DNA of 64,000 nucleotides from Balneolaceae bacterium (GCA_006969905.1 CP030887.1:2530730-2594729), one strand, 5' to 3'; shown: positions 19,028 through 44,719, counted from the stretch's first letter. Notes: a model not told the origin generated them from the letters alone. Translations and numbers: made by a program.

Positions 19028-21868
19028 GTGATAGTTTTGTCTCAATACTTCGGTTTTAAATCTTTTAAAAAATATCTGACAACTGGCTTATTTGCTCTGC
19101 TTCCCATTTTAGGTCTCAACGCTCAAAGCCCTGGCACTATAGAAGGGACTGTTCTAGACTCATTATCCGGGGAAGTTATTATTGGTGCCAATATTTTTAT
19201 TTCAGATTTAGGAAGAGGTGATGCCACAGATGTCGATGGCAAATATTCTATCAGAAGTGTCCCGGTGGGTACGTATAGGTTAACCGTTTCTTATTTAGGT
19301 TATGCTACAAAAAACATTACCGCTGAAGTTGGTTCTGGCGAGCTTCTTGTCCTTGATATAGTTTTGTCTCCGAACATTATACAAGGTGAAGAGATCACAG
19401 TGCTTGCCCAGGCTGCTGGACAGATAGCAGCCCTTAAACAGCAAATGGAGTCCAACACCATTGTTAATGTAGTTTCAAAAGAAAGATTGAACGAGCTACC
19501 CGATCAAAATGCTGCGGAATCTGTTGCCAGGTTACCAGGTGTTTCAGTTCAAAGGGATGCAGGAGAAGCTTCGAAAGTAGTTGTAAGGGGATTATCTCCC
19601 AGATTTAATTCAATTACCGTTAATGGTGTAAGGTTACCCTCAAGTGGAAATGATCGTTCAGTTGATTTGAGCTTATTGCCATCGGATGTATTAGATGGTA
19701 TTGAAGTTTTTAAAGCACTTACCCCGGATAAAGACGGTGATGCTGTTGGGGGAACGGTTAACCTTCTTGTAAAAAGAGCACCTGATGGATTCAAGAGTAC
19801 TAGTAGCATTGAAACAGGTTATAATGACATACGATCGGAATTTGGTCAGTATAAAATTCAAACTAACGGAAGTAATAGGTTTTTTAATGACAAATTAGGC
19901 ATCCTTTTATCGGGAAGTATTCAAAGAGTAAACCGCTCTTCAGAATTATTTGATGATGATGCTATTGAAGAGCAAAGTGATTCTGTTCTAATTACAGAAA
20001 ACTTAAACTTTACCGATAACCGAGAAATTAGGGATAGGTATGGACTAAGTGCCAGTATTGATTATAAGATAAATGAAGGAAATAATTTGTTTTTTTCATC
20101 GCTGTTTGGGAGAACAAATCGTGATGAAGTCAGATACAGAAAAAGGTTTAGGGTAGGTAATAATAGAACAGAGTATGATTCCAGGGATCGAGAACGATTT
20201 GAGGCTATATACACAAATTCTTTAGGGGGTCGTCACAATTGGAATTTGATAGAATTGGATTGGCAGTCTTCGTACTCATTCACATTGGGGAAAACACCAT
20301 ACTCTAATTATGCGAGATTTATAGAAAGAGGGTCCTTAGGAACTCTTTTGGATGACACTAATCCCGATAGTGTAGTTGCTGCTGCTACCGATAATCTTGA
20401 TGAGACTTTTTTCCAGTATGGAACATTTAATACGAACAGAAGAACAGAGGATGACCTCACTTTAGCTCTGAATACGAAATTGAAATTTGATCTGACAGAA
20501 AAGATTAACGGGTATTTTAAATTTGGAGGAAAGTATATAGCTAAATCCAAGTTTGTGGATGAAGATGAAATCAGAACCGACTTTGGAGTTACAGACGGGA
20601 TAGGGCGGGCCAACCCGGATGAATTCGATCTTACAGATGAAGATCAAATAGCGATCAGTAATTTTCTGAATCCTGATTATGAATCACCGGACATTAAAGG
20701 AAGGTATCAAATACCGGTAGCTTTGGATCATAAGATGTTAGCTTCTTTTTACGATCGATTCAAATCATTCTATGATCCCAATAGATTTATTGACCTAACT
20801 GATTATTCAGCATCAGAAGCTGTTTCCGCTGTATATGCAATGGGAGAACTGAACATTGGTGATAGGTTCTCAATTATACCCGGTTTTCGATATGAATATA
20901 CTGACAATTCCTATGACGGTAATTTTGGAAAACTGAGTAATAATTTAGGAAGAACAGGTATTATCTCTGATACAACGGGTGGGCAATCTTATGGAGAGTT
21001 CTTACCACAGGTACATGTCAGGATAAAAGTTCTTGAAGGCGTAGATATTCGTTTTGCGTACACTCACAGTTTATCAAGACCTAATTATAGTAATCTGGTA
21101 CCTTTTGAAAACATAAATGAAAATACACAAATTGTACTAAGAGGTAATCCAAATCTTATTCATTCAACGGCTGTTAATTACGATGCATTCCTTTCCCTGT
21201 ATAAAAACAGTATCGGATATTTTTCTGTTGGCTTTTTCTATAAAGAGCTTGAAAATATAGACTACATACTAAGGACAAGAATACAAGGAGGACAATTCGA
21301 TAGCTATCAGCTTATCTCACCTGTAAATGCAGAAGGTACTTCTACCGTAAAAGGTATGGAATTTGATCTTCAGACAGATTTTAGATTTTTGCCCAAGCCC
21401 TTAAATGGATTAATACTCTCTACAAATGTAGCTTTTATTGAATCAGAAACATTTTTCCCAATCTTACTAATTGGTGATAGAAGCCCTGATCCGCCATTTA
21501 GACCAGTTTTAATTGATACGGTTCGGTCCGGGCGGTTACCTGGCCAGCCTGATCTGACCGCAGCATTTACTATTGGCTATGAAGTAGGGCTTTTTTCAGC
21601 AAGGCTTTCGCTTTCTTACCAGCAGGCAATAATTGAAGATGTAGCAGTTACATCATTTACAGATCAACTTTCAGATGGATTTAGTTTTTGGGATTTCAGG
21701 TTAAATCAATCATTTAAAAGTCTTCCTGGGTTAACATTCTTTGTGAATATGAATAATGTTACGAGTGAGAGTGAACGCGAATTTCTAGGATCGGGTGATG
21801 ATTCCAGAAACACAAGAGACTTCAGTTATGGCTTCACAGCAAGTACAGGGGTGAAATTTAAATTTTAA
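19028..21868 (+). CDS. TonB-dependent receptor with carboxypeptidase-regulatory-like domain
   Basis: 946 aa. GTG start preceded by AAAGGAAAAAGGATCG. Signal peptide to about residue 33 (FALLPILGLNAQS). Residues ~36-115 are a CarboxypepD_reg-like beta-sandwich (IEGTVLDSLSGEVIIGANIF, DVDGKYSIRSVPVGTYRLTV). The plug domain (~135-250) has LPDQNAAESVARLPGVSV and VVRGLSPRFNSITVNG, and the rest is the outer-membrane beta-barrel ending in FTASTGVKFKF. It should import oligosaccharides across the outer membrane at the expense of TonB/ExbBD. No SusD gene follows; the partner position is taken by the beta-helix protein at 21912. It is the first gene of the glycan operon, behind two candidate operators. 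Confidence 0.9.
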   Translation: MIVLSQYFGFKSFKKYLTTGLFALLPILGLNAQSPGTIEGTVLDSLSGEVIIGANIFISDLGRGDATDVDGKYSIRSVPVGTYRLTVSYLGYATKNITAEVGSGELLVLDIVLSPNIIQGEEITVLAQAAGQIAALKQQMESNTIVNVVSKERLNELPDQNAAESVARLPGVSVQRDAGEASKVVVRGLSPRFNSITVNGVRLPSSGNDRSVDLSLLPSDVLDGIEVFKALTPDKDGDAVGGTVNLLVKRAPDGFKSTSSIETGYNDIRSEFGQYKIQTNGSNRFFNDKLGILLSGSIQRVNRSSELFDDDAIEEQSDSVLITENLNFTDNREIRDRYGLSASIDYKINEGNNLFFSSLFGRTNRDEVRYRKRFRVGNNRTEYDSRDRERFEAIYTNSLGGRHNWNLIELDWQSSYSFTLGKTPYSNYARFIERGSLGTLLDDTNPDSVVAAATDNLDETFFQYGTFNTNRRTEDDLTLALNTKLKFDLTEKINGYFKFGGKYIAKSKFVDEDEIRTDFGVTDGIGRANPDEFDLTDEDQIAISNFLNPDYESPDIKGRYQIPVALDHKMLASFYDRFKSFYDPNRFIDLTDYSASEAVSAVYAMGELNIGDRFSIIPGFRYEYTDNSYDGNFGKLSNNLGRTGIISDTTGGQSYGEFLPQVHVRIKVLEGVDIRFAYTHSLSRPNYSNLVPFENINENTQIVLRGNPNLIHSTAVNYDAFLSLYKNSIGYFSVGFFYKELENIDYILRTRIQGGQFDSYQLISPVNAEGTSTVKGMEFDLQTDFRFLPKPLNGLILSTNVAFIESETFFPILLIGDRSPDPPFRPVLIDTVRSGRLPGQPDLTAAFTIGYEVGLFSARLSLSYQQAIIEDVAVTSFTDQLSDGFSFWDFRLNQSFKSLPGLTFFVNMNNVTSESEREFLGSGDDSRNTRDFSYGFTASTGVKFKF

Positions 21869-21911: not shown

Positions 21912-23465
21912 ATGGAAATAAAAAAAGATACAAAGCACAAAGTAGGTAAAACTGTACAATGCTTTAGCGTTTTCTTGTTGCTTGCATTTATTGCGACAAC
22001 TAGCATTAACGCGCAAAGAACAGTTATGGTAGAGGAAGGTGTAGGAACACTTAATGACGCAATATCCAGTGATACTACTGCAACAGGAGAAAGAGTAGAT
22101 TCAAGTACTGTTTATGTATTGTCGAGCGGAGGAACATACTTGTTGGATGGAAGCATTCAACACAGAGACTTTCATCTAACTATAGTTGCGGAAGATGACG
22201 CTGCCGAAAAGCCTATGTTAATCCCAGCTGTTGATAATGGCGGAGAATCATCCCGTGCATTTCGTCCTAGGGGTAGCTTAACCTTAAAGGGCCTATATGT
22301 TACTAATGAGGATGAACTGGGTGGAGTAAATGACAGGATTATTCGAATTAGTTCGGATGATGTTACTATCAGTATTGATGATACTCATCTGGACAAGTCC
22401 AGTCAGTCAGCTTTTAGGGTTGATGGTGAAAATGTAAATATCTTTTTGACTAATTCTACTGTTAGTAACATTGGATTTACAAGTAGCCCGGATAATGGTC
22501 GGGGTGTAGATGACAGAGGTAATGATATTGATACTCTTTGGCTCGAAAATAATACTTTTTATAATCTAACAAGTCAGGTACTAAGAGATGATGGTGGTAT
22601 CATTAAGTATGCCTATATAAACCAGAATACCATGGTAAATATTGGTAAGAATGGAGCAGTAGAATTTGGATCGGTTGTAGAAGCGCACTTCACCAACAAT
22701 ATGGTATACAATGGCTCTTTTTATGGATATGACAACGATGATGATCCAATTGCTGTGGTAAGCCTGGATTCATTATCAGAAAATGATATTTCAGAATTCG
22801 GAGCTCAAAGCTTTACACTAAACAATAATAATTTCTATACATCGCCAGATGTTGTAAGTGCATATCCTGATACGGTAGAACAGGCAGTTACCTATAATGC
22901 AACAGTGCAGGCATATGTAACAGAGCAGGGAAGTGCACCTACTAATCTAAATGAAGCTGTTGTATTTACTGATGGACCTGCACAACCTGCAAATGTTGTT
23001 ACTGCTTTTTGGGCACTATCAGAAGACCCACCTTCCTTCCCAACAGCTGGTGAGCCATTTGATTTTGGGTACGCAGGGACATTCTCTTCCAGCACTGGTG
23101 GTGATGAAGGCCAGCAAATTGGTTCATTATTCTGGCATGGTGGAATTTTCATTAGTAATGAAGATGAAAGTTTAGCGGATACTCCAACTGCATTTCAGTT
23201 GAAAGGAAATTACCCGAATCCATTTAACCCATCTACCAACATTGCATTTGATCTTAATGAGCCTTCAGAAGTAAGTGTGGATGTGTACAGCATAGTGGGT
23301 CAAAAAGTGATGACTATACCTGCTCAGCGAATGAGTGCAGGGCAAAATCAAAGCATTTTGCTCGATGCATCCGGTCTTGCATCCGGTATTTATATTTACA
23401 GGGTTACTGCAAGAACTGCCAGTAATGTTATGGTGAATACCGGTAGAATGACACTTATTAAATAA
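21912..23465 (+). CDS. Secreted beta-helix protein with C-terminal (T9SS-type) sorting domain
   Basis: 517 aa. Signal peptide to about residue 34 (CFSVFLLLAFIATTSINA). Residues ~40-330 show the short repeating beta-strands of a right-handed parallel beta-helix (VNIFLTNSTVSNIGFTS, IDTLWLENNTFYNL, IKYAYINQNTMVNIG, VEAHFTNNMVYNG), as in chondroitinase-B/pectate-lyase-like folds. I see no convincing catalytic Lys/Arg pair. Residues ~430-517 carry the sorting module NYPNPFNPSTNIAFDL ending in GIYIYRVTA and a basic tail. The protein is probably displayed on the cell surface and binds or cuts the glycan before uptake by the receptor 43 bp upstream. It could replace SusD functionally; that is inference. 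Confidence 0.84.
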   Translation: MEIKKDTKHKVGKTVQCFSVFLLLAFIATTSINAQRTVMVEEGVGTLNDAISSDTTATGERVDSSTVYVLSSGGTYLLDGSIQHRDFHLTIVAEDDAAEKPMLIPAVDNGGESSRAFRPRGSLTLKGLYVTNEDELGGVNDRIIRISSDDVTISIDDTHLDKSSQSAFRVDGENVNIFLTNSTVSNIGFTSSPDNGRGVDDRGNDIDTLWLENNTFYNLTSQVLRDDGGIIKYAYINQNTMVNIGKNGAVEFGSVVEAHFTNNMVYNGSFYGYDNDDDPIAVVSLDSLSENDISEFGAQSFTLNNNNFYTSPDVVSAYPDTVEQAVTYNATVQAYVTEQGSAPTNLNEAVVFTDGPAQPANVVTAFWALSEDPPSFPTAGEPFDFGYAGTFSSSTGGDEGQQIGSLFWHGGIFISNEDESLADTPTAFQLKGNYPNPFNPSTNIAFDLNEPSEVSVDVYSIVGQKVMTIPAQRMSAGQNQSILLDASGLASGIYIYRVTARTASNVMVNTGRMTLIK

Positions 23466-23539: not shown

Positions 23540-25345
23540 GTGAAGTTTTTATATCGCTACTCTTTTTTCCTGCTACTCAGTGTTTTATTCATTCAAAGCT
23601 CTCAAGCTCAATACAATAGCCTTGTTGAGAACATTTATGACAGGGAAAGAATAGACCTAAATGGTACATGGAAATTCTTGTTAGACCCTATGGAAACAGG
23701 GATTATAAAGAGAAAGTACCGGAGAGATTTTCCGGCTGATGAAGTTGCTAAACTAAATGAAGGCCCTCTGATTGAATATGAGTGGGACTCATCATGGGAT
23801 ATACAAGTCCCGGGAGACTGGAACAGCCAATACAAAGAACTGGAATGGTATGAAGGTTTAGCCTGGTACCGGAAAAAGTTTGAGGCTAAAAAGGAAACAG
23901 GCTTTAGATACTTCCTGTATTTCGAAGCAGTCAATTATAAAAGTGATGTATATCTGAATGGCGAAAAACTGGGGATGCACGAAGGAGGCTTCACACCTTT
24001 TCAGTTTGAAATTACCGACAAAATAAAGTCCGTAAACTCATTAGTACTCTCGGTAGATAATAAAAGAGTAACCGATGGTATTCCCGCTGCCGATTTTGAC
24101 TGGTGGAATTACGGAGGCATTACCAGGCCGGTCTGGGTAATTAAAGTACCCAATGAGTTTATCGAAGAATACACTTTTGAATATGATGGGGAAAAAATAA
24201 ACGGAAGTGTTGTCCTAAACTCAGCTTCTACAGGGAAAAAGAAAATTAGGATTGAAATCCCGGAGCTTAGGATCAAGGAAACTGTTGAAACAGATAAAAA
24301 TGGTTATGCGGAGTTCGTATTCTCTCCCCAAAAAATAACTACATGGTCGCCAACGAACCCTAAACGTTATGAAGTATCAGTTTCTACGAGTAATGATAAA
24401 GTCTCCGAGTTAATTGGTTTCAGAACCATCGAAACCAAAGAAACAGAAATACTTTTAAACGGAGAGTCTGTTTTTCTTCGAGGCATTTGCTTGCATGAAG
24501 AAGCCATTGGCAAACCTACACGCACATTAAACTGGGAAACGGCTGAAGAGTTATTGCTTTCAGCTAAAGGAATGAATGCTAATTTCGTAAGACTGGCTCA
24601 TTATCCCCATACTGAAAAAATGACTCGTCTTGCTGATAGCTTGGGGTTAATGGTATGGAGTGAAATTCCTGTGTACTGGGAAGACATGGATTATAAAAAC
24701 CCTAAAACCCTTGCACTAGGGAAGCAGATGATAACTACCAATTATAAAAGAGATAAGAACCGTGCATCTATCATAATCTGGAGTATCGCTAATGAAACCC
24801 CAATTACAGATCATAGAAATGCCTTTCTGAAAGAATTGATTACAACGGTTCGCGAGAATGATCAAACACGACTGGTTTCAGCGGCTCTTAAAGTCTCTCA
24901 TGATGGTGGGGTTAAAAACATTGACGATCCACTAGGTAAATATCTTGATGTACTTTCGATAAACCAGTATGTGGGCTGGTACGGCAATGATTATCCGGAT
25001 AAAATTACAGATGTGGAGTGGGAATCGAACTACAACAAGCCGATGCTTTTAAGTGAATTCGGAGCAGGAGCACTTGCAGGAAATTATGGCGATAGAATGA
25101 CCCGCTGGACTGAAGAATTCCAGGCATATTTCATAGATGAAACCATGAAGATGGGAACATCTATTCCATTCTTAAGAGGAACAATGCCGTGGGTACTCAA
25201 AGATTTCCGAACGCCGAGAAGATATCACGGAGCATTTCAAAACTACTGGAACCGAAAAGGGTTTATAGATGAGAATGGCGTTCATAAACAAGCATACGAT
25301 GTGCTCAAAAACTGGTATATAAAAATAGAGGACGAGGCTAATTGA
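23540..25345 (+). CDS. Exported GH2 beta-glucuronidase
   Basis: 601 aa with a signal peptide (FFLLLSVLFIQSSQAQ), GTG start. GH2 layout: N-terminal sugar-binding jelly roll (~30-200, GDWNSQYKELEWYEGLAWYR), immunoglobulin-like domain (~200-300) and (beta/alpha)8 barrel. The acid/base is Glu419 in IIIWSIANETP and the nucleophile Glu506 in MLLSEFGAGAL. Asn571-Arg-Lys573 (NYWNRKG) matches the N-x-K motif that binds the uronate carboxylate in beta-glucuronidases and is missing from beta-galactosidases. It should release glucuronic acid from oligosaccharide ends outside the cytoplasm. Its stop is 1 bp from the next ATG, implying translational coupling. Confidence 0.87.
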   Translation: MKFLYRYSFFLLLSVLFIQSSQAQYNSLVENIYDRERIDLNGTWKFLLDPMETGIIKRKYRRDFPADEVAKLNEGPLIEYEWDSSWDIQVPGDWNSQYKELEWYEGLAWYRKKFEAKKETGFRYFLYFEAVNYKSDVYLNGEKLGMHEGGFTPFQFEITDKIKSVNSLVLSVDNKRVTDGIPAADFDWWNYGGITRPVWVIKVPNEFIEEYTFEYDGEKINGSVVLNSASTGKKKIRIEIPELRIKETVETDKNGYAEFVFSPQKITTWSPTNPKRYEVSVSTSNDKVSELIGFRTIETKETEILLNGESVFLRGICLHEEAIGKPTRTLNWETAEELLLSAKGMNANFVRLAHYPHTEKMTRLADSLGLMVWSEIPVYWEDMDYKNPKTLALGKQMITTNYKRDKNRASIIIWSIANETPITDHRNAFLKELITTVRENDQTRLVSAALKVSHDGGVKNIDDPLGKYLDVLSINQYVGWYGNDYPDKITDVEWESNYNKPMLLSEFGAGALAGNYGDRMTRWTEEFQAYFIDETMKMGTSIPFLRGTMPWVLKDFRTPRRYHGAFQNYWNRKGFIDENGVHKQAYDVLKNWYIKIEDEAN

Positions 25346-25346
25346 T

Positions 25347-27884
25347 ATGAGCATATTAATGCTGTTTTTTGGTTTTATAGTATTCAGTTGTGCGGGTGTA
25401 CAGCAAGAGCCTATTCAGTTCACAGCCAAGCCGTATTACTTTGATGCCGGTGGAAGTGATTCAGAATTACATCAAAATTCAATTTTGCTGACACCTGATT
25501 TTACATACTCTGAAGGAAGGGGATATGGCTGGACAACACCAGGGCACAAAGAGTTTTATAATGAAGGAGCTGAAGATGCACGAAACAGCTTTCTTGTTGA
25601 TGGTATTGTAGCCAAAGAAATAAGCTTTAAAGCGGATGTTCCGGAAGGTGAATGGTGGCTGGCCATTTGGTTTGAATCGGGAATGGAAGATTCTAGTACT
25701 ACACAGCTTTTCATCAATAATGAAAATGCAAATTTAGAAGTGCAGTCGTTTACACCGCCAGCAGAACCCAGGGATAATATCCAAAAGATTTACCGGGTGA
25801 TTCAGAGAAGAGTCAGCGTTTCAGACAAGGGTCTGGCATTTTCAATGAAAGGAGTTGAAGATGATGTTTACTTGCTTGGCATTTCATTGATTCCAAATGC
25901 AACTGAGTTCGTTGATGAGAAAACCTCATCCATTCTGAAACACATTGAAAAATTAGGTAATTACAAAAGCACGGACGATTTTCAACCGGTAATTGATCGG
26001 TTAAAAGAAATAAGAACTGACAAAAAGCATCGGAACTTTGCAGCTTACTGGATCCAGCAATTAGAGATTATTCGTGATTCAGAAATGTATTTTGATTATC
26101 GAGGCTGGGGTTGGGCTACTGATAAGACGGGACTGGGGCTATTTGGACATCTTCATCAGTCGGTAATGCTATATGATGGTGTTTTGAACTTTGAAAATGT
26201 CGAAGAATCTCCTCTTTATGAGCGGGCACTTTGGTATCGGGGGAGAGTACTTTACTGGCTACACCTGGAAAGAGGTATTTATGCTGAGCTCAATGGGGCA
26301 AAAAGGGATTTAGCAAAAATGTATAAGCTTCATCCCACTGATGAGCTTGTCCGGATGTATAACGGAGAACAGATTGACACCCCTGATGAATTTGATAACA
26401 TAACAAAACCTGCCAACGCACCGCAATGGGCATTCTCACAATGGGAGCTCACAAATCGCCTCAAAAAAGTAGTTGATTGGTGGGTGAATGAACAGCAATC
26501 AGAAAACGGGGAGTTTGGTGGTAAATTCGGAGATGATGTCGAGATTTTACGGTGGTGGTCACCATTAATCCTGTCAGGTGATGAAACGACTTATAAAGGT
26601 TGGAAAAAACTTGCTGATGGAGTTTGGAACAGTAATAAGGTAAAAAACGGGTATGCGAAAAAGCCGAGTGATGTAGAGCATTCTTCTGAATTTATCTCTG
26701 ATACTGCACCATTGCTGGTGTTGTTTAATGACGACCCAAAATATGCTGAAAGACTGGCTTATTCTGCAGATTATTTTCAAAATTTATGGACGGGATATAA
26801 CGATAATGGAAATAGGTTTTTCAAGTCTGCATGGTTCAGTTCTTCCGAAATCGAAACAGAAGAGCCTAAAAACAGGGATGTAATTTATAATGGCAGGGCA
26901 GTAAAAGCAGTCCGGTATTATGCATGGAAGACCGGGGATACACCTACTAAGAAAGCTTTAATTGAATGGGCTGATTCCTGGTACAAAGTTTCACAGGAAA
27001 CGAGTAAAGGCAAACCCGTTGGTATCATTCCTCCTTCTGTAGAGTTTCCAACAGAAAATATTAATGGTGATGAACCAACATGGCATGAAGCGAATATGTA
27101 CTGGTCATATTTTGACTGGAGGGATGGGAAAGCGATTCTGGATCAACTTTTATATACCTGGACATTTACTGCTGATGATAAATACCTGAAGCCTATTTTC
27201 CAGAGCCTTGAACTTGTTCGAAAATATGCTTCGGACATTGATAAGCCTCAAAGCCCTCACGCAATAGGTTCCGAAGGATGGGCTGCCCACAGGCTGGGTA
27301 ACAGAAGCGGGTTTTGGAATGTTGTAGAAACATGGAGAACACTTACAGGGGATGATTCTTACGATGATTTGATACTCAAATATGGAACCCCATACACCCG
27401 CTATCGCATCACTAAAGATGAACAGCACTTAGTAGATGCTTTAGAGCCTTATCTGGAAACTGTACGCTATAACGAACCGATGCGGAGCAGCGAAGCCATA
27501 CATACCGATCGTGTCTTCATTAAAGGAATGAATACTCGTGAAGCTACTATCCTGCTAGGAATGATCACGGGTTTTGCAATTGAAGAAAGCGCGTCTCCCT
27601 ACATCGCAACATCATGGGAAAATACAAGTCGTGATCTGACTTATTTGGTATCAAATAATGACTCTACTAGTCTGGATGTAAAGCTGTATAACTTTGCAGA
27701 TGAACGTGAATCAGCTATAATGAGAGTTTGGCAATTGAGATCAGGAGAGTATACGCTCACCAAAAAAGTAGATGGGAAAGAAGAAAAAAAACAAATCACG
27801 GTAAAGAAGGGTGGAGATCGATTTAAAATTTACACAGAGCCTAAAAAGCTTATCGAAATATCCATTCAACCCACAAATAAATAA
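25347..27884 (+). CDS. Unclassified lipoprotein with a beta-domain and alpha-helical toroid; candidate polysaccharide lyase or hydrolase
   Basis: 845 aa. A lipoprotein signal ends at about Cys15 (FIVFSCAG). Residues ~25-180 look like a galactose-binding/malectin-like sandwich (FDAGGS, then SEGRGYGWTT, and GEWWLAIWFESG), as found N-terminal to pectin-active enzymes. Residues ~200-780 are aromatic-rich and helical (YFDYRGWGWATDKTGLGLFG, EANMYWSYFDWRDGKAIL, GSEGWAAHRLGNRSGFWNVV), the look of an alpha/alpha toroid as in PL8, PL12 or GH88-type enzymes. A small beta-domain ends the protein. I recognise no named family. The locus contains a GH105 enzyme and the 4-deoxy-ketouronate pathway but no known lyase, so this protein is the best candidate to make the unsaturated ends. 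Candidate general acid/base residues cannot be fixed by eye. Confidence 0.72.
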   Translation: MSILMLFFGFIVFSCAGVQQEPIQFTAKPYYFDAGGSDSELHQNSILLTPDFTYSEGRGYGWTTPGHKEFYNEGAEDARNSFLVDGIVAKEISFKADVPEGEWWLAIWFESGMEDSSTTQLFINNENANLEVQSFTPPAEPRDNIQKIYRVIQRRVSVSDKGLAFSMKGVEDDVYLLGISLIPNATEFVDEKTSSILKHIEKLGNYKSTDDFQPVIDRLKEIRTDKKHRNFAAYWIQQLEIIRDSEMYFDYRGWGWATDKTGLGLFGHLHQSVMLYDGVLNFENVEESPLYERALWYRGRVLYWLHLERGIYAELNGAKRDLAKMYKLHPTDELVRMYNGEQIDTPDEFDNITKPANAPQWAFSQWELTNRLKKVVDWWVNEQQSENGEFGGKFGDDVEILRWWSPLILSGDETTYKGWKKLADGVWNSNKVKNGYAKKPSDVEHSSEFISDTAPLLVLFNDDPKYAERLAYSADYFQNLWTGYNDNGNRFFKSAWFSSSEIETEEPKNRDVIYNGRAVKAVRYYAWKTGDTPTKKALIEWADSWYKVSQETSKGKPVGIIPPSVEFPTENINGDEPTWHEANMYWSYFDWRDGKAILDQLLYTWTFTADDKYLKPIFQSLELVRKYASDIDKPQSPHAIGSEGWAAHRLGNRSGFWNVVETWRTLTGDDSYDDLILKYGTPYTRYRITKDEQHLVDALEPYLETVRYNEPMRSSEAIHTDRVFIKGMNTREATILLGMITGFAIEESASPYIATSWENTSRDLTYLVSNNDSTSLDVKLYNFADERESAIMRVWQLRSGEYTLTKKVDGKEEKKQITVKKGGDRFKIYTEPKKLIEISIQPTNK

Positions 27885-27896
27885 GCCAGGCATTCA

Positions 27897-29150
27897 ATGA
27901 GCGATACAAATTCGTTAAGTTGGTTCAAGAAATTTCAACTATTCATTTTATCCATTGGGCCGGGACTTTTTATAATCGGGTACAACATTGGAACGGGTAG
28001 TGTAACTTCAATGGCATCAACCGGTGCGGAATACGGGATGATGCTTACTCTACCTTTACTACTGTCCTGTATTTTTACCTATATCCTTATTGTTGTTTTT
28101 GGAAAGTATACCATTGTAACCGGGGATACGGTTATCCACAGCTATAAGCGGCATTTTGGAAAGCCTGTGGGCTTGTTCGTTTTGATTGCTTTGATATTTA
28201 CAGAAGCAGTAGGAAGTGTAGGGGTGATGGCCATTGTTACTCAGGTTACCCAGGAATGGACCCGGCCATTAACCAGTTCCGGGAACGGGATCGATCCTTT
28301 GTATTCCACTATAGCCTATGGTGCGATTTTGTATACCCTGCTTTGGAATGGGAAGCAGAATTTTTTCGAAAAAGTACTTGCCTTCTTTGTTGGGGTAATG
28401 GGTGTCAGCTTTTTGGTAACCATGGTAATGGTTATACCGGAGCCTTCTGAAGTGATTGCAGGCATTGTATCGGGTATACCAAACGAGTCAGGAGCTTTTT
28501 TACTTGTGGCAAGTATGGTGGGTACTACGATGGGGGCTGTAATTTATGTGGTCAGGTCCGTGCTGATAAAAGGAAAAGGCTGGGGCCTGGAGCAATTGAA
28601 CCTGGAAAAAAGGGATGCTAAAGTTTCAGCAATTGTGATGTTTGTTTTGAGTATTTCAGTTATGGCTGCAGCTGCCGGTACATTATACCAACAAGGCCTT
28701 AAAGTTGATAATGCCATAGATATGGTGAAGCTACTGGAACCTTTTGCAGGCCGTTTTGCGCTTTCTATTTTTGTAGGTGGTATCCTGGCAGCAGGGCTCT
28801 CATCTCTTTTCCCACATATCATGTTGGCACCTATACTGCTTGCAGATTATAAAGGTGAAAACCCAAATTTCAAATCTACTACTAATCGGTTGATCTCGCT
28901 CAGTATTATCCTTTTAACGCTCGTGGTACCACTTTTTGGTGGACGACCTGTTTTTATCATGATCATGTCTCAGGCGTTTATTGCGGTAATTACACCGGTT
29001 GTCATTTTCCTGATGATGATTCTTATGAACAGAAAGGACTTAGTAGGCAAACACAGCTTATCCCCGATGAAAAACATTTTGGTTGGGAGTATAGTCATCT
29101 TTTCAGTGATAATGGCTGTGCTTGGGTTGATCGGAATTTTCTCAATTTAA
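27897..29150 (+). CDS. NRAMP-fold transporter lacking the DPGN and MPH metal motifs
   Basis: 417 aa, about 11 membrane segments. Alignment by eye to NRAMP proteins is clear in TM1 (LSIGPGLFIIGYNIGTGS for the family's GPGL..GYMDPGNW) and TM6 (VGTTMGAVIYVVRSVLIKG for GATVMPHVIYLHSSL). The metal-binding Asp and Asn of DPGN and the Met-Pro-His of TM6 are all replaced, so Mn/Fe transport by the known mechanism is unlikely. It is encoded between an orphan enzyme and a cytoplasmic beta-glucuronidase (12 and 28 bp gaps), which suggests that it moves a sugar, uronate or oligosaccharide across the inner membrane. The family call is firm; the substrate is inference. Confidence 0.78.
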   Translation: MSDTNSLSWFKKFQLFILSIGPGLFIIGYNIGTGSVTSMASTGAEYGMMLTLPLLLSCIFTYILIVVFGKYTIVTGDTVIHSYKRHFGKPVGLFVLIALIFTEAVGSVGVMAIVTQVTQEWTRPLTSSGNGIDPLYSTIAYGAILYTLLWNGKQNFFEKVLAFFVGVMGVSFLVTMVMVIPEPSEVIAGIVSGIPNESGAFLLVASMVGTTMGAVIYVVRSVLIKGKGWGLEQLNLEKRDAKVSAIVMFVLSISVMAAAAGTLYQQGLKVDNAIDMVKLLEPFAGRFALSIFVGGILAAGLSSLFPHIMLAPILLADYKGENPNFKSTTNRLISLSIILLTLVVPLFGGRPVFIMIMSQAFIAVITPVVIFLMMILMNRKDLVGKHSLSPMKNILVGSIVIFSVIMAVLGLIGIFSI

Positions 29151-29178: not shown

Positions 29179-31026
29179 ATGCTTTACCCACAACAAAATA
29201 ACTACAGAGCAACTTTTGACCTTTCAGGATACTGGAGATTTAAAGCAGACCCTAAACAGCAAGGCCATGCAGAAAAATGGTATGCAAAGAAACTGGATGG
29301 AGATGCACATTCTATTGCAATTCCGGGTTCGTGGAATGAGCAGCTAACAGAACAAGGATTAAGGAACTTTGTCGGAAAAGCATGGCACGAAACCACATTT
29401 AAAATTCCGGGTGTTGTTCAGGAAAACAACAGAATATGGATACGTATTGCAGCAGCTGATCATGCTGCTGAAGTCTGGCTAAATGGAAATTATGTGGGAG
29501 ATCATTATGGTGGTTATATGCCATTTGGATTTGAACTTACTGAGTTCCTGAATAAACCTGGAGAAGAAAACCATCTTTCTGTTTGCGTGGATAGCACATT
29601 AACCATGCATACTCTTCCCCAGGATGTTGATCCTGAATCCGAGCAGTACAATACCCCGGGCTACGAGCGGAGGCATTTGTTTCCGGCTACCCGTTTTGAT
29701 TTTTTTCCGTATGGAGGGTTGACCAGGTCCGTAAATATTGTAGCAACACCGAAAGAATATATTTCGGATATAAAAATTGAATCAACCCTGGATGGAAAAG
29801 TAAGGGTAGGTGTTTCTTCATCAATAGATAAAGAAATTACAGTACAGATTTTGGATGCTGAAGGAGTTGAGGTTGGCTCTGGCAATTCAGCAGGTGCTAC
29901 GGTAGAACTTAAGATTGATCATCCAAAGCTTTGGGGTCCCTCACAACCCTACTTATATATAGCGAGGGTATCTCTTAAAGATGGAGATGCTATTCTGGAT
30001 CAATATGATGAAGATTTTGGGATCCGCGAGATTAAAGTGGAGGGAGGTAAAGTGCTTTTTAATAACGAACCGTTGTTCATGAGTGGTTTTGGAAAGCACG
30101 AAGACTTTCCAATTGTAGGCCGGGGGCAATTTCGCCCTGCTTACCTTCGGGATTATGAATTAATGCGCTGGATTGGGGCAAACTCTTATCGCACCAGCCA
30201 TTACCCATACGATGAAGAAATGATGCGTCTAGCTGATAGAATGGGTTTTTTAGTGATCGACGAAGTCGCTGCGGTAAGCTTAGGGTTTTGGTCAAACGAT
30301 TTTGATGACTTAAAACCTTTGCTTGATAATCATAAAAAAGCCATCAAGGAATTGTACGAACGGGATAAGAACCATCCTTCCGTAATCTCATGGTCAATAA
30401 CCAATGAGCCGAATCTTTGGGCAGAAGAATATTATCAGAATGAGGCAAGCAGCAGGTATTTCAAAGAGGTTTACGAATACACCAAATCCCTGGATAGTTC
30501 CCGCCCGGTAATGTCTATTTCTATGGCGGCGCATAAAGAGAATGATGTGGTTCTGGAATCCTGCGATGTAATAGGTATCAACCGTTACTATGGCTGGTAT
30601 ACCAAACCTGTTGATTTAGAGCAGGCTGGAAAAGACCTGGGGGATGAGCTGGACCGGACGTTTAAAAAGTATGGTAAGCCGATAATGATTACTGAATTTG
30701 GAGCCGATACTGTAGAAGGGATGCATTCTACCACAGCCCAAATGTTTACCGAGGAGTTTCAAACAGCATTTACACTGAAATACCTGGAAGTAATGACAGC
30801 CCGTGATTTTGTATTTGGATCACACGTGTGGAATTTTGCTGATTTCATGACCCCTCAACATTTCAGACGGGTTATTCTTAACAAGAAAGGTGTATTCACA
30901 AGGGACAGAAATCCAAAAAGTGTGGCATTTAAACTCCGTGAATACTGGCATGATTTAGATAAGATTTCAGACGAACACCGTCCCAAAAAGTCGAAGCCGG
31001 GATTTTTAGTCCAAGATGTAAAATGA
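29179..31026 (+). CDS. uidA: Cytoplasmic GH2 beta-glucuronidase (GusA-like)
   Basis: 615 aa without a signal peptide. N-terminal jelly roll (FDLSGYWRFK, IPGSWNEQ), Ig-like domain and TIM barrel as in E. coli GusA. Acid/base Glu410 in SWSITNEPN; nucleophile Glu506 in IMITEFGADTVEGMH; the family phrase INRYYGWY; and Asn568-Lys-Lys570 in LNKKGVFTRDRNPKS, the N-x-K uronate clamp. It should hydrolyse imported beta-glucuronides to glucuronic acid for the mannonate/KDG route. Together with the exported GH2 at 23540 it gives two glucuronidases in different compartments. Confidence 0.9.
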   Translation: MLYPQQNNYRATFDLSGYWRFKADPKQQGHAEKWYAKKLDGDAHSIAIPGSWNEQLTEQGLRNFVGKAWHETTFKIPGVVQENNRIWIRIAAADHAAEVWLNGNYVGDHYGGYMPFGFELTEFLNKPGEENHLSVCVDSTLTMHTLPQDVDPESEQYNTPGYERRHLFPATRFDFFPYGGLTRSVNIVATPKEYISDIKIESTLDGKVRVGVSSSIDKEITVQILDAEGVEVGSGNSAGATVELKIDHPKLWGPSQPYLYIARVSLKDGDAILDQYDEDFGIREIKVEGGKVLFNNEPLFMSGFGKHEDFPIVGRGQFRPAYLRDYELMRWIGANSYRTSHYPYDEEMMRLADRMGFLVIDEVAAVSLGFWSNDFDDLKPLLDNHKKAIKELYERDKNHPSVISWSITNEPNLWAEEYYQNEASSRYFKEVYEYTKSLDSSRPVMSISMAAHKENDVVLESCDVIGINRYYGWYTKPVDLEQAGKDLGDELDRTFKKYGKPIMITEFGADTVEGMHSTTAQMFTEEFQTAFTLKYLEVMTARDFVFGSHVWNFADFMTPQHFRRVILNKKGVFTRDRNPKSVAFKLREYWHDLDKISDEHRPKKSKPGFLVQDVK

Positions 31027-31047: not shown

Positions 31048-31956
31048 ATGGAAATTATGATACATGAGAGAATTACATGTTGTTATCTACATACCATTAC
31101 TAAGTACGGATATCCACCTGCCGCCAAAGGTACATTGGAATACCTGGATGAGTATAAAAGTATGGGCTTTCAATCGGTTGAGTTAGAAGGGATTCGCAAA
31201 GATCACTTACTGGAAGTATATGAGATGCGAGACTCTATAAAGCAAAAGGTAAAAGAGCTGGAGCTTAATGTACCTTATTTTTGTGTAGTGTTGCCCGGAC
31301 TATCATCGGCAGATGAGGAAGAACGAGAACAAAATCTAGAGCTCTTTAATAAGGGATGTGAAATTGCATCGGGCTTAGGATCTAAGGGGGTATTGGATAA
31401 TGCTCCATTACCACCGTACCGGTTTCCCGAAGATATTCCTGTTGTGAGGCATTATCATGAAGAAGTTATTCTGTCCGCAAAATTTCCAGATAACCTGAAT
31501 TGGAATAACTATTGGGAGCAGCTTACTTCCGCGTACAGGCGAGCATGTGATATTGCTGCCGTTTTTGGGCTCACTTACCAGATGCATCCCGCCTTAGGTG
31601 TTCTGGCTTCTACCACAGATGCTTTCCTTTATTTTCATGATGCCATTGGACGAGATAATCTTCGGTTCAATTTTGATACCGCAAACCAGTATTTCCTCAA
31701 AGACAATCTCCAGCTTTCACTAAGAAGATTAGCTGACTATATCGATTATATTCATATCTCAGATAACAGGGGAAGCCGGGTAGAACACCTTGCCATAGGT
31801 GATGGTGAAATTCGTTGGGATGATTTTTTTGAAACGGTGGACATGATTGGTTTTAAGGGTCATTTCGGAATTGATATCGGAGGAGCCGAATCAGGGGTAG
31901 AAAACCTTGATGATGCTTATGTAAAAGCCGCAGAATTTATAACTCAAAAACTGTAG
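31048..31956 (+). CDS. TIM-barrel sugar isomerase/epimerase family protein
   Basis: 302 aa, preceded by CAGGAG eight bases before the ATG. It is an AP_endonuc_2/xylose-isomerase-like TIM barrel: GFQSVELEGI (Glu on strand 2), YQMHPALGVLA, NFDTANQYF (Asp/Asn metal-site strand), YIHISDNRGS and LAIGDGEIRWDDFF. Such proteins isomerise or epimerise ketoses and keto-sugars using a divalent metal, and many in PULs are uncharacterised. Placed between a beta-glucuronidase and a hexosaminidase, it probably acts on a released monosaccharide; uronate isomerisation would fill a gap in this locus but is only a guess. Confidence 0.78.
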   Translation: MEIMIHERITCCYLHTITKYGYPPAAKGTLEYLDEYKSMGFQSVELEGIRKDHLLEVYEMRDSIKQKVKELELNVPYFCVVLPGLSSADEEEREQNLELFNKGCEIASGLGSKGVLDNAPLPPYRFPEDIPVVRHYHEEVILSAKFPDNLNWNNYWEQLTSAYRRACDIAAVFGLTYQMHPALGVLASTTDAFLYFHDAIGRDNLRFNFDTANQYFLKDNLQLSLRRLADYIDYIHISDNRGSRVEHLAIGDGEIRWDDFFETVDMIGFKGHFGIDIGGAESGVENLDDAYVKAAEFITQKL

Positions 31957-31961
31957 TTGGA

Positions 31962-34538
31962 ATGAAATCTACAAAATCTATTACCTCAGGTTTATTTTTA
32001 CTGTTCGCATTCTCAGTATTGGCTTATGCGCAAGATCGGAAACTGTTCTTGGTACCCAACCCTCAGCAAATTGAATTCGCCGAAGGGGCATTTCCCTTTG
32101 ATGATGAGTTTTCCGTGCACTTATATCTGGATGATGAGAAAGAAGAAGAATTCATATTTAATCAAATCCAGGATGAGCTCAGGATTATTTTTGGTAAGGA
32201 TTACCAATTAAAGGAGAAAGGTTCACCCCGTGAAATAGTAGTAGGGGTTAAGGGGGCTTCAAAAAGAATTGACCGGCTTATTAAAAGTGAAAACCTTAAT
32301 GTTTCTGAAGAATTAGGTAAAGAAGGATATGTATTAAAAGCTACTGATAAGCACATAGTGATAGTTGCTAATACAGTTCGGGGTGCTTTTTATGGAGTGC
32401 AGACACTAAAACAACTTATAAGAACCCATAGAGATAAAAAGCGAATTCCCGGGTTAACTATCAGGGATTGGCCCGATTTGGAAATCCGTGCAATGATGGA
32501 TGACATAAGCCGGGGCCCTGTTCCCACAAAAGCATATATGCGACAGCAGATCGAGCGCCTGTCTGAAATGAAGATCAATATGCTAACTTATTACACAGAA
32601 CATGTTGTGAAAACAAAAAGCCATCCTGCATTTGCTCCCGAAGGAGGGTCTTTAGATATAGAGGAATGGGCAGAATTAGCAGATTATGCAAAAAAATATC
32701 ATATTGATCTTGTAGGGAATTTTCAGTCATTTGGACATTTCAGTGAAATATTGAAGCATCCGGAGTACGCTCATTTAGGTGAGAGCGGGATGCTTTTATC
32801 ACCGGCTTTTGAAGAGAGTTATGAACTTCTCGAAGATATTTATTCTGAGATGATCCCCGCCTTCCATTCTGATTATTTTCATATCAACTCAGATGAGACT
32901 TTTGACCTGGGGACAGGAGCATCCAAAGCCATGGTGGATAGTTTAGGCAAAGCCGTTGTTTATGCAAATCATATTAAGAGGCTACATAAGATTGTCACAG
33001 GTTTGGGCAAAAAGATGTTTATGTGGGGAGACATTGTATTGGAGAACCCTGAAATACTAGACATGCTTCCCAAAGATATTATACAGGTTACCTGGGGCTA
33101 TGACATTATGGATGATTATGCCCCGAGAATCACTCCTTTTATGGAGAAAGACTTTAAACTGTTGGTATCCACAGCAGTCCTGAACTCGTTTGCCATTATG
33201 CCTGATTTTAATGTTTCGCTTGGGAACATTGGTGGTTTCATGGCTGAAACAGTTAAACAAGGTGCCTGGGGAATGTTGAACACCGTTTGGGATGACGAAG
33301 GATTCGCTCTGTTCTCAAGGGATTGGTATGGAGTTTCTTACGCAGCAGATCAATCTTGGAATAGTGCGCCTGAGGATGAAAGCTACCATGCCAGGTTTAA
33401 TCGTGCATTATATGGTGCAACAAATGATGGTTTATCAGAAGCTATTTCTACACTTAATGAACTGGCTAAGCTCAAATCCACAGAAAAGATGAATGAAGGA
33501 ATCCTATGGGATAAAGTAATACCTGAGAAAGGTAAGAGCGTTTTAATGAATATCCAGGACTGGCCCAAAGTGATGAAGCTTGCCAATAAAGCTCAAATGG
33601 AGTTAAACAAATATGATCCGCTAAAGCATAAACTGGATGTTCGATACATCCAGCAGGTTATTGACTTATATAAATATATGGCATCAAGCAGGCCCGGTTT
33701 AATACATGCAGCCCAGTATTACAGGGAGGCGAAAGCGACTGAGATTGATAATAAGATCAAAGCAAGGAAGAACTTAGTAAAAGCCTATGATTTGATTTCT
33801 GAAAACTTCAGCGAGTTAACCAGGTTAAGAGCCGAAAATCAAACTTTGTGGATTAAAGAAAACCGGGTGCATGCACTTGATCATATAATTGGCAAGTACG
33901 ATCAACAGCTGAGTGCTTTAGAAGAGGTCAAAGAACTTCTTTTGAGTACAATATTTGAATTTGATAAAGGAAATCCATTGCCTGATATATCCGAAATTCG
34001 ATTAGATATCCGGGAATCTGAAGGATGGTACTTTCAGGGATGGTTGATGATAAATCCCATTCCTAATGAAGGCGGTTTCGAAGATCCGGGAATGGATCAC
34101 CTCGAGGATATGCAGGGTATTGAAAATACATTTCCCAAAGTGACCCAGGAATTTTACTTCGATAATGTGAAATACCGGTGGAGGCGGGTAAACACCCCAT
34201 ACTTTGCAAAAGTAGACCTGGATGAGATTCATGAAGAAAGCGAAAATGTTGTGATGTACTCGTTTGCTCATATCGACATTGAAGAAGATCGCGAAGTAAG
34301 GGCACTTGCAGGGAGCAGTGATGGGATTGAAGTATTTGTGAATGGTAAACAGGTTCACAAGAACTATGTAGAGCGGGAGTTCAAGCTGGACGAAGATGAG
34401 ATGATACTACCGCTAAAGGCCGGGCGAAATCATTTGATGATAAAGGTTACGAATAAAGAAGGGGACTGGGCATTTAGTTTCAGGTTACCGGATTCTGAAA
34501 TGAGAAGTTACAAAAACAGGTACAAGATCATCAAGTAA
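31962..34538 (+). CDS. Exported GH20-like beta-N-acetylhexosaminidase with C-terminal extension
   Basis: 858 aa with signal peptide (GLFLLFAFSVLAYAQ). Residues ~25-145 are the GH20b-like domain that ends in IVANTVRGAFYGVQTLKQL. The catalytic barrel (~155-480) has the substrate-assisted pair Asp311-Glu312 in HINSDETFDLGTG. Beyond ~500 are helices and, from ~660, a beta-rich domain with EVFVNGKQVHKNYVE resembling a sugar-binding jelly roll. It should remove terminal N-acetylhexosamine residues in the periplasm. The Asp-Glu pair supports a true GH20, but the barrel is divergent elsewhere (for example TYYTEHVVKTK), so a related activity is possible. The next gene overlaps its stop by one base. 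Confidence 0.8.
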   Translation: MKSTKSITSGLFLLFAFSVLAYAQDRKLFLVPNPQQIEFAEGAFPFDDEFSVHLYLDDEKEEEFIFNQIQDELRIIFGKDYQLKEKGSPREIVVGVKGASKRIDRLIKSENLNVSEELGKEGYVLKATDKHIVIVANTVRGAFYGVQTLKQLIRTHRDKKRIPGLTIRDWPDLEIRAMMDDISRGPVPTKAYMRQQIERLSEMKINMLTYYTEHVVKTKSHPAFAPEGGSLDIEEWAELADYAKKYHIDLVGNFQSFGHFSEILKHPEYAHLGESGMLLSPAFEESYELLEDIYSEMIPAFHSDYFHINSDETFDLGTGASKAMVDSLGKAVVYANHIKRLHKIVTGLGKKMFMWGDIVLENPEILDMLPKDIIQVTWGYDIMDDYAPRITPFMEKDFKLLVSTAVLNSFAIMPDFNVSLGNIGGFMAETVKQGAWGMLNTVWDDEGFALFSRDWYGVSYAADQSWNSAPEDESYHARFNRALYGATNDGLSEAISTLNELAKLKSTEKMNEGILWDKVIPEKGKSVLMNIQDWPKVMKLANKAQMELNKYDPLKHKLDVRYIQQVIDLYKYMASSRPGLIHAAQYYREAKATEIDNKIKARKNLVKAYDLISENFSELTRLRAENQTLWIKENRVHALDHIIGKYDQQLSALEEVKELLLSTIFEFDKGNPLPDISEIRLDIRESEGWYFQGWLMINPIPNEGGFEDPGMDHLEDMQGIENTFPKVTQEFYFDNVKYRWRRVNTPYFAKVDLDEIHEESENVVMYSFAHIDIEEDREVRALAGSSDGIEVFVNGKQVHKNYVEREFKLDEDEMILPLKAGRNHLMIKVTNKEGDWAFSFRLPDSEMRSYKNRYKIIK

Positions 34539-35299
34539 TGAGATCAATTTTTCAACATAAAGCTGGTAAACTTGATGTTTCCATTTACGCAGACAGAGAT
34601 GTATTGGGATTAGCTGCTGCGCACTATGTAAGAAGGAGGATTAAAAGGGTTCTTGAAGAAAAGGATGAAGTCCGGATAGTTTTTGCTGCTGCTGCCTCTC
34701 AAAGGGAATTCCTTACAGAACTCTTGAATCTCGTTGATATTCCCTGGAATAAGGTAGTTGCATTTCAAATGGATGAATACCATATGTTGCCTAAATCAGC
34801 TCCCCAGAGGTTTGGGAATTTCTTAGATAAGCTTCTTTACCGGTTCAGAGATTTTAAAGCGATTCATTTCATGGGTGAGGATATCGAGATTTATGAGCAG
34901 CTTATTAATGAAGCACCTATTGATATTGTTTGTATGGGAATCGGAGAAAACGGACACCTTGCATTCAATGACCCTCCCGTAGCAGATTTTGATGATCCTG
35001 AAACTATTAAAGAGGTGGAACTGGATGAGGTATGCAGGCAGCAACAGGTCAATGACGGGGAATTTGCACGTATAGATGACGTTCCCAAACGAGCTGTTAC
35101 ATTGACTATCCCTGCACTTCTAAGCGCTACTTATCTTTCGGTTGTAGTTCCGGCATCCGCAAAAGCAGATGCGGTTGAGCAAACTCTGTTTGGTGAAATT
35201 TCTACCAAGTGCCCGGCAACTATTTTAAGGACACATCCTGATGCAAAACTGTTTTTAGATATAGATTCTTCAAAAAACATCATGGAGAAGTTCAAATGA
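34538..35299 (+). CDS. Glucosamine-6-phosphate deaminase/isomerase family protein (NagB-like)
   Basis: 253 aa, cytoplasmic. NagB-type Rossmann domain: FAAAASQREFLTELL (phosphate loop), VVAFQMDEYHML (catalytic Asp of the family) and GIGENGHLAFNDPP. In E. coli NagB the last motif is GVGNDGHIAFNEP; here the Asp is Asn and the Glu is Asp, so catalysis may differ from canonical deamination. The expected step is glucosamine-6-phosphate to fructose-6-phosphate, using hexosamine freed by the upstream GH20. No NagA deacetylase or dedicated kinase is encoded in the locus. ATGA-type overlap with GH20 and a 4-bp overlap with the next gene indicate tight coupling. Confidence 0.8.
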   Translation: MRSIFQHKAGKLDVSIYADRDVLGLAAAHYVRRRIKRVLEEKDEVRIVFAAAASQREFLTELLNLVDIPWNKVVAFQMDEYHMLPKSAPQRFGNFLDKLLYRFRDFKAIHFMGEDIEIYEQLINEAPIDIVCMGIGENGHLAFNDPPVADFDDPETIKEVELDEVCRQQQVNDGEFARIDDVPKRAVTLTIPALLSATYLSVVVPASAKADAVEQTLFGEISTKCPATILRTHPDAKLFLDIDSSKNIMEKFK

Positions 35300-42040: not shown

Positions 42041-43075
42041 TTATCGTTCTACGCGTCCGCTACCTCCGCTTGCAAGAAGCTTTTCAACTTCTTCAGTGCT
42101 TACTAGGTTAAAATCTCCCGGAATAGTTTGCTTCATGCAGGATGCTGCTACCGCAAATTCAAGTGCGTCACTGGTGTTTTCCTTGCTTAAGAGTCCATAG
42201 ATCAATCCACTGGCGAAAGAGTCACCTCCGCCCACACGATCCACAAGCTGTATTTCATATTGCCTGGAACGCACAGGTTTAGCACAATCTTTATCATCAT
42301 GTAAAAGGGCACTCCAGCCATTTTTTGATGCCGAATGGCTTTCTCTTAGTGTAATAGCCACGGTTTCAAAATCATAGGTGGTCTTTAATTTCCTGGCAAG
42401 ATTGAAATAACCTTCTTCGTCAAGATGTGCAGACTCCACGTTAGTATCTCCGGCTTTTAAACCCAGGCTTTTGTCGGCATCTTCTTCATTTGCAATACAA
42501 ACATCAACATATTCCATCAGGGGATTCATAACTGACTGGGCTTCTTCCGTAGTCCAGAGTTTACTTCTGAAATTCAGATCGCAACTTACGGTTACACCAA
42601 GCTCTTTTGCAGTTTTACAGGCTAATAGCGTATTCTCCTGGGCTTTTTTGCCTAAAGCAGGGGTAATGCCTGTCCAGTGAAACCAATTTCTTCCTTCAAA
42701 AACTTTGTGCCAATCAACTTCTATTGAATCCATAGCAGTAACTGCTGAATCCGCACGATCATAGATTACTTTAGAAGGCCGTTGGCTTGCCCCGGTCTCA
42801 AGGAAGTAAATGCCCAGACGGTTACCACCACGTACAATGAAGTCTGTATTAACTCCGAATTTTCTGAGTTGGTTTACAGCTGATTGTCCAATTTCATGTT
42901 TTGGGATTTTTGAAACGAAATAGCTTTTAAGGCCATAGTTGCTGAGCGCGGCTGCTACGTTAGCTTCTCCACCTCCATAATTGATGTCAAAAGTCTGAGA
43001 CTGAACAAATCTTGAAAACCCAGGGGTTGAGAGTCTTAGCATTATCTCTCCAAATGTAACGACTTGTTTTTGCAT
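42041..43075 (-). CDS. kdgK: 2-keto-3-deoxygluconate kinase
   Basis: 344 aa PfkB-family kinase. N-terminal FGEIMLRLSTPGF, the GGGEANVAAALSNYG sugar-binding loop, and the C-terminal ATP/catalytic motif VDRVGGGDSFASGLIYGL with its base Asp. In this position, between eda and a YesU-like gene, it converts KDG to KDPG, joining the lyase and mannonate routes. The 5-bp gap to eda indicates an operon. Confidence 0.92.
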   Translation of the reverse strand: MQKQVVTFGEIMLRLSTPGFSRFVQSQTFDINYGGGEANVAAALSNYGLKSYFVSKIPKHEIGQSAVNQLRKFGVNTDFIVRGGNRLGIYFLETGASQRPSKVIYDRADSAVTAMDSIEVDWHKVFEGRNWFHWTGITPALGKKAQENTLLACKTAKELGVTVSCDLNFRSKLWTTEEAQSVMNPLMEYVDVCIANEEDADKSLGLKAGDTNVESAHLDEEGYFNLARKLKTTYDFETVAITLRESHSASKNGWSALLHDDKDCAKPVRSRQYEIQLVDRVGGGDSFASGLIYGLLSKENTSDALEFAVAASCMKQTIPGDFNLVSTEEVEKLLASGGSGRVER

Positions 43076-43080
43076 GATAT

Positions 43081-43731: not shown

Positions 43732-43739
43732 TATTTATC

Positions 43740-44678: not shown

Positions 44679-44719
44679 TTTTATGCTGTGTTTTTATTTT
44701 CAAATTAACTTCTGAGATA

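Follow-up and report, generated by a model that had tools for sequence, protein, structure and literature searches.

The L-rhamnose-α-1,4-D-glucuronate lyase BACCELL_00875 (5no8), of family PL27, acts by β-elimination at GlcA (PMC8377490). In PL33 and its kin, the catalytic His and Tyr are carried on a large C-terminal β domain (PMC11848413; for PL40, PMC12915356). This His-bearing domain comprises about 230 aa in PL33 and about 410 aa in PL40 (PMC11848413, PMC12915356). In early 2025, the lyase families listed by CAZy numbered 44 (PMC11848413). In this study, we analysed a 64,000-nucleotide stretch of DNA from a Balneolaceae bacterium (GCA_006969905.1 CP030887.1:2530730-2594729), called the window below, and an 845-aa protein encoded in it. 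The fold of this protein and its general role, that of a carbohydrate-active enzyme in a polysaccharide utilisation cluster, are already known. A preliminary description had proposed it as a candidate for a new family of polysaccharide lyases or hydrolases.

As shown in Table 1, the protein is encoded by an intact ORF on the + strand, running from ATG to stop. A chance ORF was ruled out, because the opposite strand is stop-rich in this stretch and more than 20 full-length homologues exist. The stop codon TGA of the upstream GH2 gene occupies positions 25343-25345 and the ATG lies at 25347, leaving a gap of 1 base. The preliminary description had stated that the gene is translationally coupled to this β-glucuronidase gene; the close spacing was borne out, and it is compatible with coupling. 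In Chitinophaga cymbidii and two Pedobacter, the start of the homologous gene overlaps the GH88/GH105 stop via ATGA. The protein had also been called a lipoprotein. Its N-terminus, MSILMLFFGFIVFSC, has a cysteine at a lipobox-like place and an n-region without positive charge, and this lipobox taken alone is a weak signal. However, close homologues carry clean lipoprotein signals, such as MKLFNFLLLGIFLLSC.

We compared the 845-aa protein with Pfam, NCBIfam and PHROGs and found 0 families, even at E<=10 or E<=1. A phmmer search against the PDB gave chance matches only. By sequence, the protein belongs to none of the Pfam, NCBIfam and PHROG families tested, in agreement with its earlier designation as an orphan, and a recent CAZy family could already contain it. 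A literature search, with subscription papers and CAZy outside its scope, found no description of the family. The gene was present in 8 of the 394 genomes of the window's phylum. A wider scan of bacteria and archaea with one genome per species yielded 24 loci. The hosts were Balneola and relatives, Neomarinimicrobiota, Melioribacter, Bythopirellula, Pseudokordiimonas, Microbulbifer, Agaribacillus, Chitinophaga and Pedobacter, and the phyla were Bacteroidota, Neomarinimicrobiota, Planctomycetes and Proteobacteria. The family is rare among bacteria. Its members share 28-59% identity over most of the length. A remote branch, with about 25% identity in the barrel region, consists of proteins of about 1250 aa from Alphaproteobacteria that are annotated as LamG-domain proteins. 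Two of these remote relatives adjoin KduD/KdgK genes, and one of the two also adjoins an annotated kduI. Three of the LamG-type relatives (L009, L010, L011, L051-L053) are plasmid-borne. A phage origin of the gene was ruled out, as no relatives were found in viral contigs and the model had no match to viral folds below E 0.001.

Structures were predicted with AlphaFold2 on a 24-sequence alignment, for the full protein (pLDDT 89, pTM 0.86) and for residues 188-845 (pLDDT 91.9, pTM 0.89). The N-domain of the model matched 2o14 (YxiM) with Z 15.9 and the malectin-like FER/ANX ectodomains with Z 12-13. The family profile also matched 2o14 (E 4.1e-6), and PF21254, the AGA-YXIM galactose-binding domain, was found in 10 of 24 homologues; the window protein alone gave no PF21254 match. 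The malectin-like N-domain of the preliminary description was therefore confirmed, and its helical toroid was recovered as the (α/α)6 barrel of the models. Among the best 50 fold matches listed, those closest to the barrel were 7tkv (Z 15.6), GH76 (Z 15.4, rmsd 4.0 over 284 residues), GH88 (1vd5, Z 14.7, rmsd 4.0 with 311 residues aligned) and GH105 (4xuv, Z 13.7). AprG, GH47 and sugar epimerases were further matches among these 50. PL27 was the sole lyase among them (5no8, rank 49, Z 11.8), and residues 335-694 of 5no8 aligned with the barrel at an rmsd of 3.9 Å over 260 residues with 13% identity. All barrel matches had about 10% identity, and the barrel profile found none of the PDB sequences, 5no8 included, at E<=10. 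Since helical models can reach high Z values without true kinship, the fold was used as a class and not as a function; a shared fold by itself shows no function. Cellodextrin phosphorylase and Cry toxins, which filled the top rows of Foldseek, were dismissed as spurious on account of very long alignments with rmsd >20 Å.

The preliminary description had named PL8, PL12, PL15, PL17 and PL21 together with GH88 as folds for comparison. GH88 was indeed among the nearest folds. In contrast, the expected lyase folds failed to appear: no PL8, PL12, PL15, PL17 or PL21 chain was among the best 50 matches of either fold comparison, an absence that by itself excludes nothing, and the nearest matches were GH76, GH88, GH105 and sugar epimerases. 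Fold identity with PL8/12/15/17/21 was rejected on this ground and because the His-bearing β-sheet domain is missing. The 24-sequence alignment contains no conserved His in the C-terminal domain (755-842). The 845-aa protein had no Pfam match at E<=10, and heparinase II/III-type and alginate-lyase models were not among the families that the 24 homologues matched.

We then aligned 23 full-length sequences. The invariant residues include E389, K393, D396, D397, E399, R402, D442, E444, H445, E448, D452, D511, R517, K556, W579, Y588, N709, D721 and R722. By the secondary structure of the model, most of them fall in loops alternating along the barrel, an arrangement that would be consistent with a single active-site face. 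With six LamG relatives added, D396, D397, D442, H445, E448, D721, R722, Q384 and several Trp were still kept, and changes were seen at D452 (Asn), D511 (Gln/Ser), Y588 (Ala) and E399 (Asp). D452 and D511 sit at sequence offsets matching D88/D149, the catalytic Asp pair of the GH88 enzyme UGL; this is a match of offsets and not a superposition. That the LamG branch has lost both residues speaks against the superfamily as a whole using a GH88-type mechanism.

Table 1. Features of the 845-aa protein and of the gene cluster around it, in positions of the window. Numbers of loci refer to the 26 loci compared and are lower bounds.
Feature	Position	Strand	Basis or remark
TonB-dependent receptor	19028..21868	+	conserved with the 845-aa protein
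Orphan β-helix-like protein, T9SS sorting domain, second lyase candidate	21912..23465	+	Pfam PF18962 only; 9/26 loci
GH2, probable β-glucuronidase, NRKG motif	23540..25345	+	Pfam; motif read from sequence
Orphan 845-aa enzyme candidate	25347..27884	+	intact ORF; no library match; homologues in several phyla
Its signal peptide, lipobox-like FSC, residues 1-15	25347..25391	+	sequence; typical lipoboxes in homologues
Its N-terminal β-sandwich, YxiM/malectin-like galactose-binding domain, residues ~30-183	25434..25895	+	PF21254, 2o14 profile, fold
Its helical region ahead of barrel, residues ~191-339	25917..26363	+	AlphaFold2 models
Its (α/α)6 barrel, predicted catalytic domain, residues ~360-741	26424..27569	+	models, fold search, conservation
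Its C-terminal small β-sandwich, residues ~755-842, 8 strands	27609..27872	+	AlphaFold2 models
Nramp-family transporter	27897..29150	+	Pfam; 11/26 loci
GH2, probable β-glucuronidase, NKKGVFTRDR motif	29179..31026	+	Pfam; motif read from sequence
Xylose-isomerase-like TIM barrel protein	31048..31956	+	Pfam; 11/26 loci
GH20-like hexosaminidase	31962..34538	+	Pfam; Asp-Glu pair in 6yhh alignment; 18/26 loci
Glucosamine-6-phosphate deaminase-like protein (NagB)	34538..35299	+	2ri0 E 3.5e-20; 20/26 loci
PhyH-type oxygenase	35296-36123	+	
GH88/GH105 unsaturated uronyl hydrolase, sole one in genome	36147..37931	+	Pfam, genome search, co-occurrence
KDG kinase, KDPG aldolase, KduI, KduD (unsaturated uronate catabolism)	42041..45487	-	Pfam

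In addition to the genes of Table 1, the cluster contains an SSF symporter on the + strand. Also encoded on the - strand are a GntR/LacI-type regulator, DUF1961, DUF4861 and a TRAP uptake system; beyond these, the + strand carries a reductase and UxuA. Both GH2 proteins have the N-x-K glucuronidase motif, and the closest relatives of the NagB-like protein are glucosamine-6-phosphate deaminases. DUF1961 and DUF4861 (41263-42027 (-), 45492-46715 (-)) adjoin KDG kinase and KduD, and no described role for either was found in the searchable literature. The PhyH-type dioxygenase is conserved in Balneolaceae clusters, where its gene separates NagB from GH105, and some other clusters have it close to NagB. 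An Nramp-family "metal ion" transporter is odd inside a uronate cluster; its homologues in 11 of the 26 loci have 53-84% identity, and this transporter may take up a sugar or uronate, or provide metal for an enzyme of the cluster. The β-helix nature of the protein at 21912-23465 is a reading of its sequence. Compared with Pfam, this protein showed nothing beyond the PF18962 tail, and no PL6 match and no solved relative or lyase was found. It adjoins the TonB-dependent receptor in the nine loci that have it, and may act as a further lyase or bind glycans at the surface. Its assignment to PL6 was rejected, as the whole-genome PF14592 search was negative too.

To compare the neighbours across genomes, we used flanks of 10-20 kb at 26 loci from several phyla that were chosen for having the gene of the 845-aa protein; several contigs were short, so the counts are lower bounds. 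NagB and a TonB-dependent receptor were each present in at least 20 of these loci, and the GH20-like and GH88/GH105 genes each in at least 18. All of these genes co-recur in distant phyla. The gene of the 845-aa protein nearly always has neighbours for the use of unsaturated sugars of the kind that polysaccharide lyases produce. The Balneolaceae relatives have the same gene order from receptor to symporter, differing in that the GH2 gene directly before the gene of interest is mostly missing and an extra SSF-like gene is present. Bythopirellula and a Rhodothermaceae MAG have the gene and no strong GH88 match, a point against reading the protein as a lyase. GH28 and PL22-like genes occur in some loci. 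A family of 620-640 aa (L035:12757-14637, L028:3845-5713 and relatives), with weak PL10, PL5 and C5-epimerase matches, is present in 12 of the 26 loci, is absent from the window, and is another α/α enzyme candidate. A 627-aa α/α protein of Chitinophaga/Pedobacter was rejected as PL27, having no PDB sequence match. A family of about 420 aa (L035:3305-4573, L056:11734-13038 and relatives), with weak GH88, GH127 and C5-epimerase matches, occurs in 11 of the 26 loci.

The association with GH105 was also examined independently of this choice of loci. Of the 394 phylum genomes, nine have the full-length, two-domain GH105 of the cluster. All eight genomes with the gene of the 845-aa protein carry it, at a distance of 0.9-14.3 kb (hypergeometric 7e-16 with relatedness ignored; the true significance is lower, since six of the eight genomes come from one family). 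In the ninth genome, G392, the cluster is likewise present but this gene is missing. In its position between the neighbours, G392 has a 584-aa β-helix ORF (L056:13042-14793) that was found in none of the loci with the 845-aa protein, and a PL22-like oligogalacturonate lyase gene (L057:2622-3800) lies two genes past its GH105. This arrangement is as expected if a lyase had been replaced. PL22-like genes also follow the gene of interest in two loci, which makes that part of the replacement argument weaker.

A GH88/GH105 gene together with KduI/KduD is the signature of lyase products. In the whole genome there is one GH88/GH105 gene, and it lies inside this cluster; with KduI, KduD, KdgK and KDPG aldolase in the same window, unsaturated uronides are expected as intermediates. 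We searched the genome for lyases with PF07940, PF05426, PF14592 and PF02278. PF07940, PF05426 and PF14592 (heparinase-II/III-, PL5- and PL6-type) found none, each of these models having matched in control genomes. PF02278 (PL8) gave no match, but no control matched either, so that this search was uninformative. The earlier statement that the locus requires a lyase that is otherwise absent thus holds as far as tested, with the protein at 21912-23465 as a second candidate. NagB, the receptor, the GH20-like enzyme and GH105 cannot make an unsaturated uronide, and the 845-aa protein is therefore the only candidate common to the Balneola-type and the Chitinophaga/Pedobacter-type clusters. From this gene neighbourhood, and not from the structure, we infer that it is a lyase of a new family acting on a uronate/hexosamine glycan, with a probability of roughly 0.55. 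The preliminary interpretation is supported in part: its domains, orphan status and context were borne out, and its missing-lyase argument has become stronger; the specific lyase folds first envisaged were not borne out. As the GH20-like enzyme keeps the Asp-Glu pair and the NagB-like protein is nearest to deaminases, the substrate is likely a glycan that contains glucuronic acid and N-acetylhexosamine, for example one of glycosaminoglycan-like type or a bacterial polymer. A galacturonate polymer is possible, given the GH28 and PL22-like genes of some loci.

According to this proposal, the 845-aa protein would be a lipoprotein-anchored polysaccharide lyase at the cell surface or in the periplasm. 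Glycan binding would fall to the N-terminal galactose-binding-like domain. The barrel would cleave the chain by β-elimination beside a uronic acid, probably glucuronic acid, that is (1,4)-substituted; the new non-reducing end would then bear a 4,5-unsaturated uronic acid. The GH88/GH105 of the cluster would then take off the unsaturated residue, and the GH2 β-glucuronidases and the GH20-like enzyme would trim the remainder. KduI/KduD/KdgK/KDPG aldolase would consume the unsaturated uronate and NagB the amino sugar. The base and acid may be provided by the invariant H445 and R722 together with a second group, which in this subfamily would be Y588, and the carboxylate cluster of D396, D397, E/D399, D442 and E448 may bind metal or position the substrate.

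The main rival to a lyase is a new (α/α)6 glycoside hydrolase, endo- or exo-acting on the same glycan with D397/E448 or D452/D511 as acid/base, another protein making the unsaturated uronides. It holds this place because the nearest folds (GH76, GH88/UGL, GH105, GH47) are hydrolases and carboxylates dominate the invariant residues, D396, D397, D442 and E448 being invariant even in remote relatives. In the models, the closeness to GH76, GH88 and GH105 would count against a lyase, and the barrel shared with the lyase PL27 (5no8) would count for one. D452/D511 at the offsets of the GH88 Asp pair could likewise indicate hydrolase chemistry, yet the LamG relatives have Asn and Gln/Ser at these positions. 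We rejected a diverged GH88/GH105, since hhalign against the alignment of the cluster GH88/GH105 gave a probability of about 1%, and this lack of profile similarity speaks against the hydrolase as well. Other secreted orphans of the clusters could provide the lyase that a hydrolase would require; two further α/α proteins in the Chitinophaga/Pedobacter clusters could do so, and a lyase may already be there where PL22-like genes lie beside the gene in two loci. However, no other lyase candidate is common to all cluster types, and we regard the hydrolase as rather unlikely.

It is improbable, in our view, that the lyase of the locus is instead the β-helix T9SS protein at 21912-23465, with the 845-aa protein as an accessory binding or trimming enzyme. 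β-Helix folds are common in lyases, and this protein is secreted, adjoins the receptor in nine loci and has no other assigned role. It matches neither PL6 nor solved lyases, though, and is missing from the Chitinophaga/Pedobacter clusters that keep the 845-aa protein with GH105. A non-hydrolytic (α/α)6 enzyme, for example a polymer-level uronate epimerase, seems very improbable. AGE and cellobiose epimerases have the same barrel and a neighbouring family in Chitinophaga clusters matches C5-epimerase models, but the 845-aa protein itself matches no epimerase model and cleavage fits the degradative context better.

Confirmation of the activity would make the protein the founder of a new carbohydrate-active enzyme family. 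It would also provide the entry enzyme for a cross-phylum cluster in which current annotation recognises no depolymerase. The logic of the cluster, with a single GH105, the GH20-like enzyme, NagB and KduI/KduD, makes the substrate class testable. The fuller reading, a new lyase family on a hydrolase/epimerase-type barrel without the Tyr/His β-sheet apparatus, as the entry enzyme of a conserved, undescribed uronate/N-acetylhexosamine glycan system common to Bacteroidota, Neomarinimicrobiota and Proteobacteria, is put forward tentatively, at slightly less than even odds.

The 845-aa protein resembles PL12, PL15, PL17, PL21, PL33, PL39 and PL40 in having a helical toroid followed by a β domain and in its uronate context. 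Its β domain measures about 90 aa and lacks a conserved His, unlike that of the PL12/15/17/21/33 toroid lyases, whose apparatus is absent. The barrel fold is shared with the GH76 α-1,6-mannanases (Aman6), whereas neither the protein nor its homologues match PF03663 and no mannan genes were seen in the cluster. With the GH88/GH105 unsaturated uronyl hydrolases it has in common the barrel fold (Z 14.7 for GH88 and 13.7 for GH105) and the cluster; it differs from them in having no PF07470 match or profile similarity and in its flanking domains. PL27 also has an N-terminal β-sandwich and an (α/α)6 barrel, and the domain arrangement may be similar, the comparison having covered the barrel (Z 11.8). 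Unlike PL27, it adds a helical region and a C-terminal β-sandwich, and it has no sequence-profile match to 5no8. Its N-domain resembles YxiM (PF21254; 2o14) by both profile and fold, but YxiM runs on into an esterase-like domain, and the 845-aa protein into an α/α barrel.
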